Shown here piece after piece: positions 21,780 to 29,147 of a stretch of DNA of 64,000 nucleotides. Source of the DNA: Thermus thermophilus. GTDB taxonomy: Bacteria; Deinococcota; Deinococci; Deinococcales; Thermaceae. The position numbers and the translations under genes were made by a program. The notes under the pieces were generated by a model. The model made no database searches. It saw nothing but the letters and a program-made list of their open reading frames with translations, and was not told the DNA's origin. The stretch spans positions 62,001 to 126,000 of the forward strand of contig NZ_AP025158.1 of the NCBI RefSeq assembly GCF_019974155.1, written 5' to 3'. Every line of letters starts with the position of its first letter. Within the stretch, counting starts at the first letter, position 1.

Positions 21780-22426
21780 GGACGCCTCCTTTCGCCCAAT
21801 CCCTTTCCAAGAAGCCCGATGACCCCCGCCAGGAAGAGGCCCCAGGCCGTCTGGCCCAGGAGGTGGAAGCCCAGGGCCACCCCGCCCGCCAGCAGGGCCA
21901 CGGGGTTCTTCAGGTGGGGCAGGGCCAGGAGGAAGAAAAGGGCGGGAAGGGCGAAGGAAAGGGCCTCCCCCAAACCCGGAAAGGCCAGTAGCCCCTGGGC
22001 CCCCAAGGCCCCGAGGGCGGTGCCCAGGTTCCAGGAGAGGTAGGCGCCGAGGCCCAAGCCCAGGAAGTAGCCCCGCCTTTCCCCCGGGGGAAGGGTGGGA
22101 AGGGCCCTCAAGGCCACGGCGAAGACCTCGTCGGTGAGGAAGAAGGCCTCCACGGGACCTCCCTTCAGGTAGGGCCTCAGGGCGGGGCCGTAGAAGGCGT
22201 GGCGCAGGTTGAGGAGAAGGCCCAAAAGGGCCGCCAACAAGGGCGGGACCCCCTGGGCCAAAAGCCCCACCAGGGCGAACTGGCTGGCCCCGGCGAAGAC
22301 CAGGAGGGAGGTGAGCTGGACCCAAAGGGGACTGAGCCCCGCCTGCGCCCCCAAGGCGCCGAAGGCCACGGCCACGGGGAAATACCCCAAGGCGATGGGC
22401 CAAGCCGCCCGCAGACCCCGTTTCAT
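21776..22426 (-). CDS. azlC: AzlC-type branched-chain amino-acid exporter (216 aa)
   Basis: Large subunit of the AzlCD (LIV-E) exporter. Family features are an N-terminal ALGYFPVAVAFGALGAQAGLSP and LLVFAGASQFALVGLLAQG, then LNLRHAFYGPALRPYL and FFLTDEVFAVALRALP. Seven hydrophobic segments are present. In Bacillus AzlC confers azaleucine resistance and exports leucine and valine analogues; that role here is by homology. The 5' region up to the antitoxin stump is only 21 bp, so little promoter space remains. Confidence 0.87.
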   Translation of the reverse strand: MKRGLRAAWPIALGYFPVAVAFGALGAQAGLSPLWVQLTSLLVFAGASQFALVGLLAQGVPPLLAALLGLLLNLRHAFYGPALRPYLKGGPVEAFFLTDEVFAVALRALPTLPPGERRGYFLGLGLGAYLSWNLGTALGALGAQGLLAFPGLGEALSFALPALFFLLALPHLKNPVALLAGGVALGFHLLGQTAWGLFLAGVIGLLGKGLGERRRP

Positions 22427-22447
22427 ACCACCCCACGCTGGCCTAAG

Positions 22448-22492
22448 TTAGAGGCTGGCCAAGAAGAGGACGTTGGCGTCCAAAAAGACCAA
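22448..22492 (-). pseudogene. 15-codon stump of a PIN-domain toxin gene
   Basis: One base after the antitoxin stop a TTG-started frame reads LVFLDANVLFLASL then stops. V-F-L-D-A-N-V-L-F is the first strand and first catalytic Asp of VapC-like PIN nucleases, exactly where the toxin partner of an AbrB antitoxin should start. The rest of the gene is gone, probably deleted toward azlC. Confidence 0.65.
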
Positions 22493-22493
22493 C

Positions 22494-22739
22494 TCAGAAG
22501 CCCCAGGCCCGGCGGAAGGCATCCAGCTCCTCCGGGGTGGCCTGGGCGTTTTCGGCGAACTCCAGGATGCGCTCCTCCGTGTAGAGCTCCACAGGCAACA
22601 CCACCGCGGGCTCCAAGACGACCCGGCCCGCCTCCACCCGGACCACCAAGGGGTCCCCCGGCTTCAACCCCAAGGCCTGGCGTACCTCCGCGGGGAGGGT
22701 GATCTGGCCCCGTTTGGAGAGGGAAGTGAGCGCCTTCAT
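22494..22739 (-). CDS. AbrB/SpoVT-type antitoxin, partner toxin lost (81 aa)
   Basis: Swapped-hairpin DNA-binding protein of toxin-antitoxin loci. The AbrB fold is plain: TSLSKRGQITLPAEVRQALGLKPGD and VVRVEAGRVVLEP. The C-terminal tail (TEERILEFAENAQATPEELDAFRRAW) would wrap a toxin, of which only a stump remains downstream. ATG 22739 follows a TATACT -10 box by 6 bp, but an IS now sits directly upstream of that box. It may be kept as an orphan regulator or be drifting. Confidence 0.85.
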   Translation of the reverse strand: MKALTSLSKRGQITLPAEVRQALGLKPGDPLVVRVEAGRVVLEPAVVLPVELYTEERILEFAENAQATPEELDAFRRAWGF

Positions 22740-22751: not shown

Positions 22752-23666
22752 CCTTCGTGTGCTACCTCATAGCTCCACCCCGGCCATCCTGAGAAGCACC
22801 CGGCTACGTATGAGGTTGTGAACGAGCAGGATGAGATTCACCCGGGCCACCAGCCCCCAGTAGGACCGCGCTTCTATCCGATGAAGCCCCAAAGACCGCA
22901 CCATCACGCTAAACCGCGTCTCAATCCAGTTCCGTACCCTCCCCATCCACTCTTTCCATCCCGTCTCCACCACCGTTCCTCCCCTGACCCGATAGGGTGG
23001 CGTCTTGACCCCCTGGACCCAGCGAAAGCCCCGGTCCCCCAAGACCGCGGGCAGACCGTCCAGCAGGTCCCTCCCCCAGGTCTCCCGGGCATTCCCGGGG
23101 AGGATAGCCCAACGAAAAAAGAGGCCGCGCTCGTTCATCACCGGCATGAGAACGTAGCCCGCGAAAGCCCCCAGGGGGCCCACCCCCACAGCGGCCTCAG
23201 GAAGGTCCAAGCCGTGAATCCGGTGGCCGTGGGCCAGGGGGATGGGTTTGAGGTCCACCACCTGCAGAAGACCTTGCCCTCCGGAGAGCCTTATGGCCAG
23301 GTGAGCCAACAACCCCTGAGCCTTCTGAAGGACCCGGTAGAAGCGGGAGAGGTGGGGGAGGGAGGGGAAGTAGGCCTTGAGGGTGGTCTTGGCGGCCAGG
23401 TAGCCTTTGGCGAGGTCCTGGCCTTGCAACAGGACGAAGATGGCGAGGGTCAAGAGCTCGGCCAGGGTGGCCTTCTGGTGCTTTTGCTTTGGGGGGAGCT
23501 TGAATCCTTGGGCCTGCAGGGCTTTCAGTTCGTCATCTACCCAGACGTAGATAGCCACGAGAAGGGTCTCTGCGTCAAGATGGTAAAGGGGGTGCTCACG
23601 ATCTTGCCGCATGGCACCCCCTCTTTTTTCACACCCCGGGGGTCCAGATCAAGTAGCACACGAAGG
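22752..23666 (-). mobile_element. IS5/IS982-like element, copy 2 (complete, 915 bp)
   Basis: Perfect 14-bp terminal inverted repeats, ccttcgtgtgctac. A 4-bp target duplication, TATA, lies at 22748-22751 and 23667-23670. One transposase gene fills it. The right part is repeated at the window start (1-193 plus 1368-1452). It lies between the antitoxin and the DndC-NurA-HerA operon. Confidence 0.9.
22767..23612 (-). CDS. IS5/IS982-like DDE transposase (281 aa)
   Basis: Intact transposase. Catalytic residues are probably Asp in LLQVVDLKPIPLA, Asp in AVLGDRGFRWV and Glu in VRNWIETRFSVMVRSLGLHR, the latter a typical R-x-x-x-E-T-x-F helix of IS982/IS5 groups. The C-terminal LVARVNLILLVHNLIRS is also usual for these. 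The family boundary is not certain from sequence alone because the target duplication of 4 bp fits IS5 groups better than IS982. The start is ATG at 23612. Confidence 0.85.
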   Translation of the reverse strand: MRQDREHPLYHLDAETLLVAIYVWVDDELKALQAQGFKLPPKQKHQKATLAELLTLAIFVLLQGQDLAKGYLAAKTTLKAYFPSLPHLSRFYRVLQKAQGLLAHLAIRLSGGQGLLQVVDLKPIPLAHGHRIHGLDLPEAAVGVGPLGAFAGYVLMPVMNERGLFFRWAILPGNARETWGRDLLDGLPAVLGDRGFRWVQGVKTPPYRVRGGTVVETGWKEWMGRVRNWIETRFSVMVRSLGLHRIEARSYWGLVARVNLILLVHNLIRSRVLLRMAGVEL

Positions 23667-23998: not shown

Positions 23999-25033
23999 AT
24001 GCGGGTTCCCCTTGAAGCCCTGGCCGCGGGGATAGAGGAATCTTTTGGGTCTTCCGACCTTAAGGAGGCCATAAACCTGGCGGAGCGCGCCCTCGAGGCC
24101 GCCCTCGCCCAGGGGGCCGAGACCTTCGTCCTCACCTACTCGGGGGGCAAGGACTCCACCGCCACCACCGTCCTCACCCTGGAGTGGTGGAAGCGCCGGG
24201 GGAAGCCCGTGGAGGTCCATGTGGTCTACGCCGACACGGGGCTGGAGATCCCCACCCTCCACGCCCAGGCCCTGGCCTTCCTGGAGGCGGTGAGGGGGCT
24301 CCACCCCGGGGTTCACGTCCACACCGCCCGCCCCCGCCCCGAGGAGAGCTTCTGGGTCCAGCTCATCGGCAAGGGCTACCCCCCGCCCCACAACCGCTTC
24401 CGCTGGTGCACCCGCAGGCTGAAGATCGCCCCCATGGACCGCCTGGTCCAGAGCCTTCCCGGGAAGAAGGCCATCCTCACGGGAGTGCGCTTCGGGGAGT
24501 CGGACGCGCGGGACCAGAGGCTCGTCCTCTCTTGCTCCCGGGGCGGGGAGTGCGGCCAGGGGGTGCTCTTCCAGGAGGCCAAGCGCCTGAACGCCCTTTA
24601 CGTGGCCCCCATCGCCTTCTGGCGGGAGTGCCTCGTGTGGGACTACCTGAACTTCGTAGCCCCCTCCCTGGGCTACCCCACGGGGGACCTGGAGGCGGTC
24701 TACGGGGGCCGGGACACCCGCTTCGGGTGCTGGACCTGCACCGTGGTGCGGCGGGACAAGGCCATGGCGCGGGCCCTGGAGAACGGCCACGCCCACCTCC
24801 TCCCCCTCTACGAGTTCCGGGAGTGGCTTTGGGCGTGGACGCGGGATCCCCGGACCCGGGTGGAGCGGAAGGACGGCAAGCCCGGGAGGCTCACCCTCGA
24901 GGCCAGGCGGGAGGTGTACCGGAGGCTGAAGGAAGTGGAGGCGAAGCTCGGGATGGAGTTCCTCACCGCCAAGGAGGAGGCACTTATTCGGAGGCTGTGG
25001 CGTTCCGGGTGGTACAATGGAAAACGTAGGTGA
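23999..25033 (+). CDS. DndC-like PP-loop ATPase / PAPS-reductase family protein (344 aa)
   Basis: Resembles DndC/SspD, which adenylates DNA for phosphorothioation. SGGKDS at 48-53 is the PP-loop, followed by VHVVYADTGLEIP, RWCTRRLKIAP (Cys 137) and TGVRFGESDARDQR. Further Cys at about 179, 185, 244 and 247 include the GCWTC block followed by TVV that is typical of DndC and could hold an iron-sulfur cluster. A GGAGGAGG site precedes ATG 23999. The stop overlaps the NurA start by 4 bp. No DndA, B, D or E gene is nearby, so the standard pathway is incomplete; an orphan or divergent function is possible. Confidence 0.82.
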   Translation: MRVPLEALAAGIEESFGSSDLKEAINLAERALEAALAQGAETFVLTYSGGKDSTATTVLTLEWWKRRGKPVEVHVVYADTGLEIPTLHAQALAFLEAVRGLHPGVHVHTARPRPEESFWVQLIGKGYPPPHNRFRWCTRRLKIAPMDRLVQSLPGKKAILTGVRFGESDARDQRLVLSCSRGGECGQGVLFQEAKRLNALYVAPIAFWRECLVWDYLNFVAPSLGYPTGDLEAVYGGRDTRFGCWTCTVVRRDKAMARALENGHAHLLPLYEFREWLWAWTRDPRTRVERKDGKPGRLTLEARREVYRRLKEVEAKLGMEFLTAKEEALIRRLWRSGWYNGKRR

Positions 25034-26166
25034 ACCCTATGCCATATGCGGGAGAAGGAAGTAATCCCCTTGGCCTTAAGGACTTCCTTGACGATCTCAG
25101 GCTGGACCATTACCAGGATCTCCTGCGCGAGCTAGACGAGCTTTACCAAAAGCTCAAGCAGGAACGCCGAGTACCCTTGCACGGGGGCGGGGAGGCCTAC
25201 CCCCTCCTCACCCTTACCGTGGACGGAGGCGAGGGACGCGCCTTCGAAGATCTTCCGCTCCTCTCCTTCGGCCTCGTGCGCGTTGCTGCGGTAGGGGTGA
25301 AGGGTTTCCGCCTACCTTCCATTGCCCACCTCCTCCCTGGGTATGAAGTCCTACGGGACCCCAAGGGCTATCTGGAAGGCCTCCTCGAGCGCTCCGAAGA
25401 AAGCCCCGCCGCCGATGCCTTGAAGACCTTCTTCCGGGCCACAGGCATCTCCCTGGAAGATCTGGGGGAATACTACACCAAGGACCTCAGGGCCTTCATG
25501 GGGATCTTCCGGGACGTCCTGGAGTGGGCCTACCTGGTTTGGGGGGTGGAGAAGGTCTTGCAGGAAAGTTACAAAGACTACCTTTTCATAAAAGACGGGC
25601 GCCTGGCGCAATTGGGCGTCAGAGAGAGTTTCCGCTCTAAGCTACAGGACTACTTCGCAAGGAAGCACCTCCTTCTCGCTGGGGTCACCAAGCGCTCTCG
25701 CCTCCTCGCTGAAGGTCTCACCTCCTTGGTGATGGCGAGGCTTTTCGCCGAAGCCGGGGGAACCTTCCTGCTCCAGGCCCCCCAGGATCTCATGGAGAAG
25801 GCTTACCGCTACGAGCGCCAGTGGAACGCCGACCTCGAGGGAGCCTTCGTCATGGGCAGGCGTTACGTGGCGCGCCTCCTTGAGGACACCTTTAGACCCC
25901 AGGAGGGTGTGGTCATCTTTGACCTCCCCCCCTACTTGGGGGAGGAGGATGCCGTTAAGGTAGCCCGAAGCCTAAGGGCACACCGGAGCGTCCTCTATGG
26001 GGGGAGTGTGGGAACGGTGGTAGAGGCCCATGGGAGGGCCTCCGTGGCCAGGTCCATCCCTCACAGGATGGAGGAGGAAATCCTCGCCCGGTTCAGAAAG
26101 ACCTTCGGTGAAGATCTCGCCAAGAAGCTCGCCGAATGGCTCAGGCTGGCAGACAAGGAGGGTTGA
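25030..26166 (+). CDS. nurA: NurA-domain nuclease (378 aa)
   Basis: Probable 5'-3' nuclease that works with HerA on DNA ends. The fold is inferred from spaced motifs: LTVDGG with Asp about 65, FIKDGRLAQLG with Asp about 189, and AGVTKRSRLLAE with Lys about 221, the order seen in NurA proteins. A helical insert lies between the first two motifs. The GTG start at 25030 overlaps the DndC-like stop as GTGA; ATG 25039 is an alternative. HerA starts 1 bp after its stop. Base composition is less GC-extreme than the core genes nearby, a sign of acquisition. Confidence 0.75.
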   Translation: MNPMPYAGEGSNPLGLKDFLDDLRLDHYQDLLRELDELYQKLKQERRVPLHGGGEAYPLLTLTVDGGEGRAFEDLPLLSFGLVRVAAVGVKGFRLPSIAHLLPGYEVLRDPKGYLEGLLERSEESPAADALKTFFRATGISLEDLGEYYTKDLRAFMGIFRDVLEWAYLVWGVEKVLQESYKDYLFIKDGRLAQLGVRESFRSKLQDYFARKHLLLAGVTKRSRLLAEGLTSLVMARLFAEAGGTFLLQAPQDLMEKAYRYERQWNADLEGAFVMGRRYVARLLEDTFRPQEGVVIFDLPPYLGEEDAVKVARSLRAHRSVLYGGSVGTVVEAHGRASVARSIPHRMEEEILARFRKTFGEDLAKKLAEWLRLADKEG

Positions 26167-26167
26167 G

Positions 26168-27928
26168 ATGGCCGAAATCCCCATCGGCGTGGTGGTGTCT
26201 TCCAGGCGGAACGGCCCTTGGGCGGAGCTCACCTTAGTGCTCACCCCCCAGGAGCTGGACCAAGGCAAGCGCCTCCTCCTGGGCGAGCTCGTTCGCGTCT
26301 CTTCCGGCGGGAAAGACTACGTGGGCATGGTCTTAGACGGCTACTACGAACCTGTGGGCCGCGGCGACCCCACCTATACCCTTGCTTTGGCCCACATCAA
26401 TCAGGTGGACCTTGAGAAGGAGGACCCTTGGGCGCGAAAGGAAGTCAACTTCTACCACCACCGGATCGTCCTCCTAGGGCGGGTCGTGGAGGGGGGGCTC
26501 TTCGCCCCCTCCACCCGCCTGCTCCCCCCCGTGGTGGAGGCTCGGGTCTACCGCATGACGGAGGAGGAACTCCAAGGGTTGCTCACCGCCGAGGTGGGAG
26601 CCTCAGGGAGCGTTAAGGCCGAGGGGCAGAGGAGGTACGCCTTCGGCCACCTGGCCTACGGCCTAGAAGAAGGTGGGGAGTACCCGAAGGTGGTAAAGGA
26701 GGTGGACCCCGCCCTCTTCGTGGGCAGAAGAACGGCTAACTTCGGCAAGACGGGCTTCGGGAAGAGCAACGAGAACAAGGTCATCCTCACCCTTTTGGCC
26801 CACGCCTTTCCCCAGGTGGGGATGTTGATTCTGGACCAGAACGCCGAGTATCTCCTCCAGACGGAGGCCACCACCTCCCCAGGCCTCGCCCAGGCCTTCA
26901 AGGTACTGGGGATTCGGGGCCGGATCCGCTTCTACACCGCCAGGGAGGAAGCCTGGGCAAGGAGGTTGGAGGAACACCTAGGGACGGAGTGGAGGGAGTA
27001 CGTGGAGGTCTTTCCCCTTAAAGTGGACTTCTACCGCTTCCCCGACCTGGCCGTGGCCCTCGCCTACCAGAGGCGTCGCCTCCAGGGGGAAGAGCCTCCC
27101 CAGTACCTGGAGAGCGCCTTTTACAACCTCGAGGACTGGAAGAAGATCCCCGACCGCATGGCCTACGTCTACGGGGCTCTTCGGAAAGCGGGGCTCACCC
27201 CCCGCAAAGGTTTCAAGATAAAGTACAAGGACGCAGACTACGACATATCCGAAGAAAGCTCTTGGGATAACCTCCAAAAGTCCATGGAGAGTAACAGTCA
27301 GCGAGGGGACAATAAGGGAGGGGCGAGGGAACTCTACAACCGGGCCAAGGTCTTCTCTTTCCTTCGTGCGTTCCATGCGCCTGGAAAGGCGGCGAACTTC
27401 CTCGAGGCCATCAAAGAGGATCTCCTCGGAGAGGAGGCCGAGGGAGAGGGTAAGGTGGTCATCCTTGACCTTCCTTCCCTGGGCGAGGCCGCCGACTTCT
27501 TCACCTTGCGCCTCATGGATCTCCTCTTTGAAAGAGCTGTAGAGCTCTACGGCAAACGCCAGGCCAACTTCCTCGTGGTCCTGGAAGAGGCCCACAACTT
27601 CCTGGAGGACAAGGCGGGGATCTTCTACCGCGTGGCCAAGGAAGGGAGGAAGTACGGCATAGGAATGCTGTACTCCACACAGTCCCCTGCCAGCATTCCC
27701 ATGGAGATCCTTTCCCAGACGGAAAATTTTCTAGTGAAGCATCTCTCTAGCGAGGAGGACGTGAAAGTCCTCAAGAGGGCTAAAGCCCCCTTCGCCTTTG
27801 TGGCCGATTTTCTCCTCTCCGAGCCCATAATAGGCTATTCCTATGTTTACTTCGAACCTTATCAGCCTTTCGTGGTCCCACTGCGGGTCAAACTCCTGGA
27901 GCATGTCCTCAAAAGCCTCGTCTCGTGA
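26168..27928 (+). CDS. herA: HerA-type hexameric DNA translocase (586 aa)
   Basis: FtsK-HerA superfamily ATPase. Residues 1-130 form a HAS-barrel (GVVVSSRRNGPW to LGELVRV). The ATPase core has Walker A FGKTGFGKSN with Lys about 199, then MLILDQNAEYL, and Walker B FLVVLEEAHNFL with Glu 473-474. A sensor-like MLYSTQSPASIPMEI follows and the C-terminus ends in a lid segment. It would pump DNA into the NurA nuclease. A T. thermophilus HerA homologue, TdtA, is reported to drive DNA donation; whether this is the orthologue was not testable. IS630 copy 2 lies 110 bp downstream. Confidence 0.87.
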   Translation: MAEIPIGVVVSSRRNGPWAELTLVLTPQELDQGKRLLLGELVRVSSGGKDYVGMVLDGYYEPVGRGDPTYTLALAHINQVDLEKEDPWARKEVNFYHHRIVLLGRVVEGGLFAPSTRLLPPVVEARVYRMTEEELQGLLTAEVGASGSVKAEGQRRYAFGHLAYGLEEGGEYPKVVKEVDPALFVGRRTANFGKTGFGKSNENKVILTLLAHAFPQVGMLILDQNAEYLLQTEATTSPGLAQAFKVLGIRGRIRFYTAREEAWARRLEEHLGTEWREYVEVFPLKVDFYRFPDLAVALAYQRRRLQGEEPPQYLESAFYNLEDWKKIPDRMAYVYGALRKAGLTPRKGFKIKYKDADYDISEESSWDNLQKSMESNSQRGDNKGGARELYNRAKVFSFLRAFHAPGKAANFLEAIKEDLLGEEAEGEGKVVILDLPSLGEAADFFTLRLMDLLFERAVELYGKRQANFLVVLEEAHNFLEDKAGIFYRVAKEGRKYGIGMLYSTQSPASIPMEILSQTENFLVKHLSSEEDVKVLKRAKAPFAFVADFLLSEPIIGYSYVYFEPYQPFVVPLRVKLLEHVLKSLVS

Positions 27929-28074: not shown

Positions 28075-29147
28075 ATGCGGCTGACCAAACACCAACGCCG
28101 CCCCCGGCTGGAACTCAAGCTGCGGCATCACCCGGACAACCTGCACGCCCTCTACCGGGAAAGCGAAGACCCCGTGGAACGCGCCCGCTGGCACGCCATC
28201 TGGCTCCTCGCCACAGGCCACTCCATCCCCCAGGTGGCCCAGACCCTGGGCTACTCCACCCGCTGGGTCCGCAACACCCTCCACCGCTACAACGAAGGCC
28301 AGCCCATGGCCGACCTCCGGCACCAAAACCCAGGCCAGCCCCCCTTGCTCTCCCCGGAGCTTCAGGAAGCCTTCCGCCAGGCCCTCCTCCAGCCCCATCC
28401 CCAGGACGGGATATGGACCATAAGGAACGCCGCCCTGTGGCTCTCGGAGAGGCTGGGCCGTCCCGTGGACCCCAGGCGGGCCTGGACCTGGATGAAGCGC
28501 CTGGGCTTCGCCCCCCTCCGCCCCCGTCCCCGGCACCGGGAGAGGGACGTGGAAGAGGGGGAGGCCTTCAAAAAAAACTCTTCTTCACCGTTGTCCTCCT
28601 GAAGTGCCTCTTCCCCTGGCTTGTCCTGGAGCTTTGGGCTTTTGACGAACACAGGTTGGGCCTGAAGCCCGTGTACCGGCGGGTGTGGGCGCCCCGGGGG
28701 AAGACGCCCCTGGCCTGGGTGCGGCCGCGGTACCGGTGGCTTTACGTGTACGGCTTCGTGCGTCCGGGTACAGGGGAGAGCGAGTTTTGGCTTTTGCCCA
28801 CGGTGAACGCTGTGGTCTTCTCGGAGGTGCTAAGGCGCTTTGCCCGGTTGCGTGGGGCTGGGGAGGGGAAGCTTTTGCTTTTGGTCTTGGACCGGGCGGG
28901 GTGGCACGTGTCGGGGCGGGTGGAGGTGCCGGAGGGGGTGGGTTTGGTCTTCCTGCCGCCCTACTCTCCCGAGCTCCAACCCGTGGAGCGGGTGTGGCCT
29001 CTGGTGGACGCGGTGGTGGCCAACGGGCGGGTGGAGACGGAGGAGGAGCTTTGGGCGAGGGTGGAGGCCCGGTGCGCCTACCTGCAGACCCAGCCGGGCC
29101 TGATTCGGAGCCATACCCTCTTTCACTGGTGGCCGGGAGGATGCTGA
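28075..29147 (+). CDS. IS630-family transposase, copy 2, by -1 frameshifting (about 357 aa)
   Basis: Same two-frame design as copy 1: the DNA-binding frame runs 28075-28602, and the catalytic frame is entered by a -1 slip at 28572-28578. Differences from copy 1 include Thr for Ile in AQTLGYS and VVFSEVLRRF for VAFSEVLGRF. Because both copies keep the same frame layout and the same A-run despite substitutions elsewhere, the frameshift appears to be under selection. Catalytic DE, D and E residues are all present. Confidence 0.88.
28572..28578 (+). other. Programmed -1 frameshift site of IS630 copy 2
   Basis: Heptamer A AAA AAC in the first-ORF frame, identical in sequence and position to that of copy 1. 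Confidence 0.75.

Follow-up and report, generated by a model that had tools for sequence, protein, structure and literature searches.

Three tightly packed genes at positions 23999-27928 of the window (the whole 64,000-nucleotide stretch of DNA that was analysed) appear from their sequences to be the Thermus counterpart of TdpABC, a phosphorothioation and anti-phage system already published for thermophiles, and thus a known system at a new locus. The overall best explanation, to which we give a probability of about 0.95, is a TdpABC operon in which TdpC would mark host DNA and TdpAB would destroy unmarked DNA. The study describing the system is said to be An et al. 2025, in Nat Chem Biol. The earlier note on this DNA had put forward the coupling of a DndC-like enzyme with a HerA-NurA pair as its own combination, and did not recognise that this had been published before, with structures. 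What is newer with respect to the published system, and would merit an experiment, is the occurrence of the marking gene by itself in Thermus viruses.

Identification of the operon

Each of the three ORFs is intact and uninterrupted. In order, they code for a PP-loop enzyme resembling DndC, a nuclease resembling NurA and a translocase resembling HerA, the three-gene unit that had been proposed from the sequence:

23999..25033, + strand: tdpC, DndC-like PP-loop enzyme of 344 aa, proposed DNA phosphorothioation enzyme, with an SGGKDS motif and six cysteines
25039..26166, + strand: tdpB, NurA-like nuclease subunit of 375 aa from the conserved ATG, matching PDB TdpB
26168..27928, + strand: tdpA, HerA-like DNA translocase of 586 aa, with Walker A GKTGFGKS, PF01935, PF05872 and a match to PDB TdpA

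The product of tdpB is 96% identical over its full length to the TdpB chain 8wet_G (E 5.9e-239), and that of tdpA matches the TdpA chain 8wet_A over 585 of 586 residues (E 0). Both results come from PDB sequence searches, with which profile searches agree. The window TdpA is approximately 94% identical to PDB TdpA over its full length, the percentage being the figure for a sister copy. The TdpA and TdpB structures were determined by cryo-EM (PDB 8WET/8WFD/8Y1K), and the entries are titled 'cryo-EM structure of TdpAB complex' and '...in complex with AMPPNP and DNA'. In a Foldseek search with a weak AlphaFold model of the window TdpB (pLDDT 55), the TdpAB complexes 8wfd/8wet were the only significant matches. 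Pfam, NCBIfam, PHROGs and PADLOC gave no family match of tdpB as NurA; the NurA call of the earlier note, made from motifs, was therefore a good one, and its HerA assignment of the third gene agrees with the domain and TdpA matches.

The first gene contains both the SGGKDS and the GCWTC motifs pointed out previously, with cysteines at positions 137, 179, 185, 211, 244 and 247 of its product, and it matches PF01507 and DndC models. The PDB has no TdpC chain, and a profile search of it with TdpC yielded chance matches only; the assignment as TdpC is based on operon position and likeness to DndC. In the sister Thermus genome G004, the 375 residues of TdpB are all the same as in the PDB chain, and the adjoining DndC-like gene is 93% identical to the first gene of the window, which argues that the latter is tdpC. 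The system paper for TdpABC is cited as An et al. in passages of PMC13251355 and PMC12345140.

The called start of tdpB, GTG 25030, is probably wrong. Its relatives and the PDB TdpB chain have in common the start MPYAGEG, which corresponds to ATG 25039. With this start tdpC and tdpB are separated by 5 bp, and the GTGA overlap described earlier is probably not real; the 1-bp gap between tdpB and tdpA stands. Consensus scans detected no promoter, and terminators no more often than by chance.

Genetic environment

Insertion sequences and an orphan antitoxin gene surround the operon:

22494..22739, - strand: MazE/PrlF-type antitoxin gene, adjacent to the operon and not claimed as part of Tdp
22767..23612, - strand: transposase ORF belonging to an insertion sequence immediately upstream of the operon; sister loci lack it here
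28075..29147, + strand: insertion sequence with two ORFs, immediately downstream of the operon; sister loci lack it here

More copies of the two-ORF insertion sequence are found elsewhere in the window. The sister loci pair the MazE/PrlF-type antitoxin with a PIN toxin, which is absent in the window. At window positions 22426-22494 both the helix-turn-helix (HTH)-methyltransferase gene and the PIN toxin of the sister loci are missing, leaving the MazE-like antitoxin alone. The reported lack of Dnd and Ssp partner genes nearby is borne out for the nine flanking genes submitted to PADLOC, which called zero defence genes among them.

The same genome (G000) harbours a second NurA-HerA pair at L132:6587-11113 (G000:C1 about 1986086-1990612). 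There, a 508-aa HsdM_N and Druantia DruA protein (PF14236, PF12161) is followed by a PF09376 NurA and a PF01935 HerA, making it a DruA-NurA-HerA operon.

Distribution of the tdp genes

Among 27 Thermus genomes, we found tdpC in eight and tdpA in six. The operon is present in six of the 27. It is whole in the window genome, G004, G016 and G017 and fragmentary in G021; in G007, tdpB is split by an inserted transposase gene (L012:11507-12607), with tdpC and tdpA open (locus L012:10879-13194). G071, which belongs to another genus of the Thermaceae, has the full trio. A NurA-like profile run over 111 genomes of the phylum detected no copies beyond those of Thermus and G071. Plasmid searches revealed no NurA relative, and their HerA matches were mostly to generic domains (one Calothrix match was inspected). 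A pattern scan of contigs with the NurA alignment, its patterns being too specific, returned T. parvatiensis only.

The view of the three genes as a unit fares well in other genomes, since the trio stays together in other Thermus and in another genus. The genes follow one another in the same order in G004, G007, G016, G017, G021 (fragmentary) and G071, and the identities of the NurA-like proteins in these relatives go down to 41-54%. Conservation of the order in such diverged relatives points to more than chance. In the close relative G006, the slot of the operon, bounded by the HTH-methyltransferase gene and hibD, is unoccupied, and the G006 hibD protein is identical to that of the window; sister loci have about 4.9 kb in this slot, including a MazE/PIN toxin-antitoxin pair. 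The tdp operon is thus accessory. Sequence and comparison confirm that a recently published, compact phosphorothioation defence occurs as an accessory operon in Thermus and in one more genus of the Thermaceae.

tdpC in viruses and recombination with the operon

Copies of tdpC without tdpA or tdpB occur in G010, in G012 and as a second copy in G017, in proviruses of one shared gene layout. By profile, the G012 provirus has a VP16-type capsid gene, a packaging ATPase and an integrase. Phage Tsatsa also carries tdpC (87% identity, annotated as a PAPS reductase), as do three IMG/VR contigs (93-94%). Solo tdpC is found in Matsushitavirus-type viruses and proviruses, which goes beyond the published system. 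The ratios of dN/dS between tdpC copies are 0.32-0.43, indicating constraint on both viral and operon copies.

The so-called PAPS reductase of P23-77 (ORF3, L163:1889-2656) was considered as a further tdpC and rejected: it has no real similarity to tdpC and fits the SspD model (E 6e-14). The viral slot that holds tdpC in Tsatsa is occupied by this SspD-like gene in P23-77 and by nothing in IN93. Two different enzymes of phosphorothioation type are thus found in one viral slot.

Between the operon tdpC and its nearest proviral copies (G012, G017), identity per 100 bases is mostly 93-100% in the interior of the gene but only 52-65% in the first 100 bases and the last 50. Similar interiors with dissimilar ends imply recombination or gene conversion. 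In the Thermus operons, the G+C content is approximately 69% for tdpC and 60% for tdpB and tdpA; the corresponding values in the G071 trio are 57/58/55%. Together, these patterns are consistent with a putative overwriting of the operon tdpC by a viral copy. An overwritten tdpC might mark a motif other than the ancestral one. This scenario is compatible with the TdpABC reading, and we regard it as rather unlikely.

A CRISPR spacer directed against tdpC

One stretch of tdpC corresponds to a natural CRISPR spacer of another strain:

24730..24765, + strand: 36-base stretch of tdpC equal to a CRISPR spacer of T. thermophilus HC11 plasmid pHC11 (36/36 bases identical)

Among 72,556 plasmids, this spacer alone gave a near match to the operon. 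The pHC11 array (L165:7965-9455) adjoins cas3 and cas6, and three of its 19 spacers match Matsushitavirus-type proviruses, the tdpC spacer exactly. The second matches the VP16 (capsid) gene with 0-1 mismatches in five viruses, and the third matches one further site in the same viruses with 3 mismatches. A set of 100 shuffled spacers gave no matches. As spacers of a single array match both tdpC and, in the same viruses, the capsid gene, Thermus encounters tdpC on viruses.

We tentatively combine these observations, in a reading that we hold at somewhat below even odds. Matsushitavirus-type viruses would use a working solo tdpC to put sulfur marks on viral DNA, which TdpAB would then take for self; operon and viral copies would recombine; and the CRISPR system of another strain would target the viral gene, at the cost that, in a host with the tdp genes, this spacer would also be directed against the operon. 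The viruses may thus borrow the self-marking enzyme to escape, which makes it a candidate counter-defence. Such an arms race is testable: viruses of these hosts carry a solo self-marking gene, this gene has undergone recombination with its operon counterpart, and CRISPR targets it in nature. The authors of the Tsatsa paper consider that viral 'PAPS reductases' deserve further investigation (PMC11437467). Viral self-marking, if true, would give those proteins a role.

Proposed mechanism and alternatives

By analogy with the published system, TdpC would place phosphorothioate marks on host DNA, and the hexameric ring of TdpA would pump duplex DNA into the TdpB nuclease. Incoming unmarked DNA would be degraded by TdpAB, and the backbone sulfur would stall the complex on self DNA. 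The published TdpC reportedly proceeds by ATP-dependent adenylation of the DNA backbone followed by replacement with sulfur. TdpAB is said to degrade phosphorothioate-free phage DNA, the modification blocking both translocation and nuclease activity. Our sequence comparisons show that TdpA and TdpB are orthologues of the proteins of known structure and that the genes form a conserved, accessory operon. The modification chemistry, the discrimination of self from non-self and the protection against phages would, in this strain, follow the published system. Against the TdpABC reading, the insertion sequences at the flanks and the altered upstream region make expression at this locus putative.

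The earlier note had left the choice between compact defence and DNA transfer. TdpABC orthology favours the former, and DNA transfer gained no support. A DNA-donation module like TdtA/NurA of ICETh1, in which the translocase exports DNA and the DndC-like protein replaces the restriction enzyme, is very improbable. The layout of ICETh1 is restriction enzyme, NurA (377 aa), TdtA (568 aa) and methylase (PMC5365140), and the sizes of its NurA and TdtA are close to those of the window pair. In addition, a 1604-aa Type ISP restriction-modification enzyme is encoded directly upstream of the trio in G016, its stop overlapping the start of tdpC, with tdpB and tdpA following (L017:703-9589). However, the window proteins are TdpA/TdpB orthologues, no integrase or ICE is found at the locus, and most copies of the operon have no restriction gene upstream. 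The four-gene set of G016 is a possible coupled defence operon.

The PF01507 match might also suggest a PAPS reductase of sulfate assimilation next to a HerA-NurA pair with a housekeeping role in repair, a reading that we discount almost entirely, as tdpC reaches 150-165 bits with DndC models versus 30 with CysH (CysH equivalog cut-off 154), CysH stands on a long separate branch of the tree described below, the genome has its own CysH gene elsewhere and the locus is accessory, empty in G006. The grouping with sulfate-assimilation reductases that the earlier note had named as contrary to its proposal is thus not what we found.

Comparison with known systems

We built a tree of 23 sequences and, since it is midpoint-rooted and contains long branches, draw on it for the Dnd split alone: the DndCs of Dnd operons are separated (99/99) from the Thermus group and from the phage enzymes paired with methyltransferases. 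The likeness of TdpABC to Dnd (DndBCDE with DndFGH) lies in its DndC-like first gene and in the weak similarity of the HerA-like protein to DndH. Nevertheless, tdpC scores 149.4 bits with the DndC equivalog TIGR03183, about half of the cut-off of 290.4, and the Dnd-operon DndCs are devoid of cysteines 179, 185 and 211, which the Thermus and phage enzymes share. In the six trio genomes we detected no full DndD gene, only partial ATPase matches below cut-off. A DndE search gave no match, but its controls were equally silent. With Ssp, the common feature is a PP-loop enzyme for phosphorothioation (SspD); however, tdpC reaches only 44 bits with the SspD model, and no Ssp match was found among the flanking genes tested.

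The TdtA/NurA transjugation module of ICETh1 has the same succession of NurA and a HerA/FtsK-type ATPase. It differs in its restriction enzyme and methylase, neither of which is in the window operon, where a DndC-like gene is found and no integrase is nearby.

Phage PAPS reductases encoded beside DNA methyltransferases (Dobby, RR1-A, phiC725A, Microcystis phage Mae-JY29) have the same six cysteines as TdpC, with 33-40% identity, but their partners are methyltransferases rather than HerA-NurA. DndC-like enzymes of phages and plasmids repeatedly adjoin C5-cytosine or adenine DNA methyltransferase genes (L140, L144, L159, L161, L141, L142). This company would fit a DNA-protecting role of the phage enzymes.

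TdpABC itself differs from the window locus by a few per cent of sequence divergence and by the insertion sequences on both flanks of the window copy. TdpA and TdpB are 94-96% identical to it over their full lengths, and the same three-gene unit is found in sister Thermus loci.
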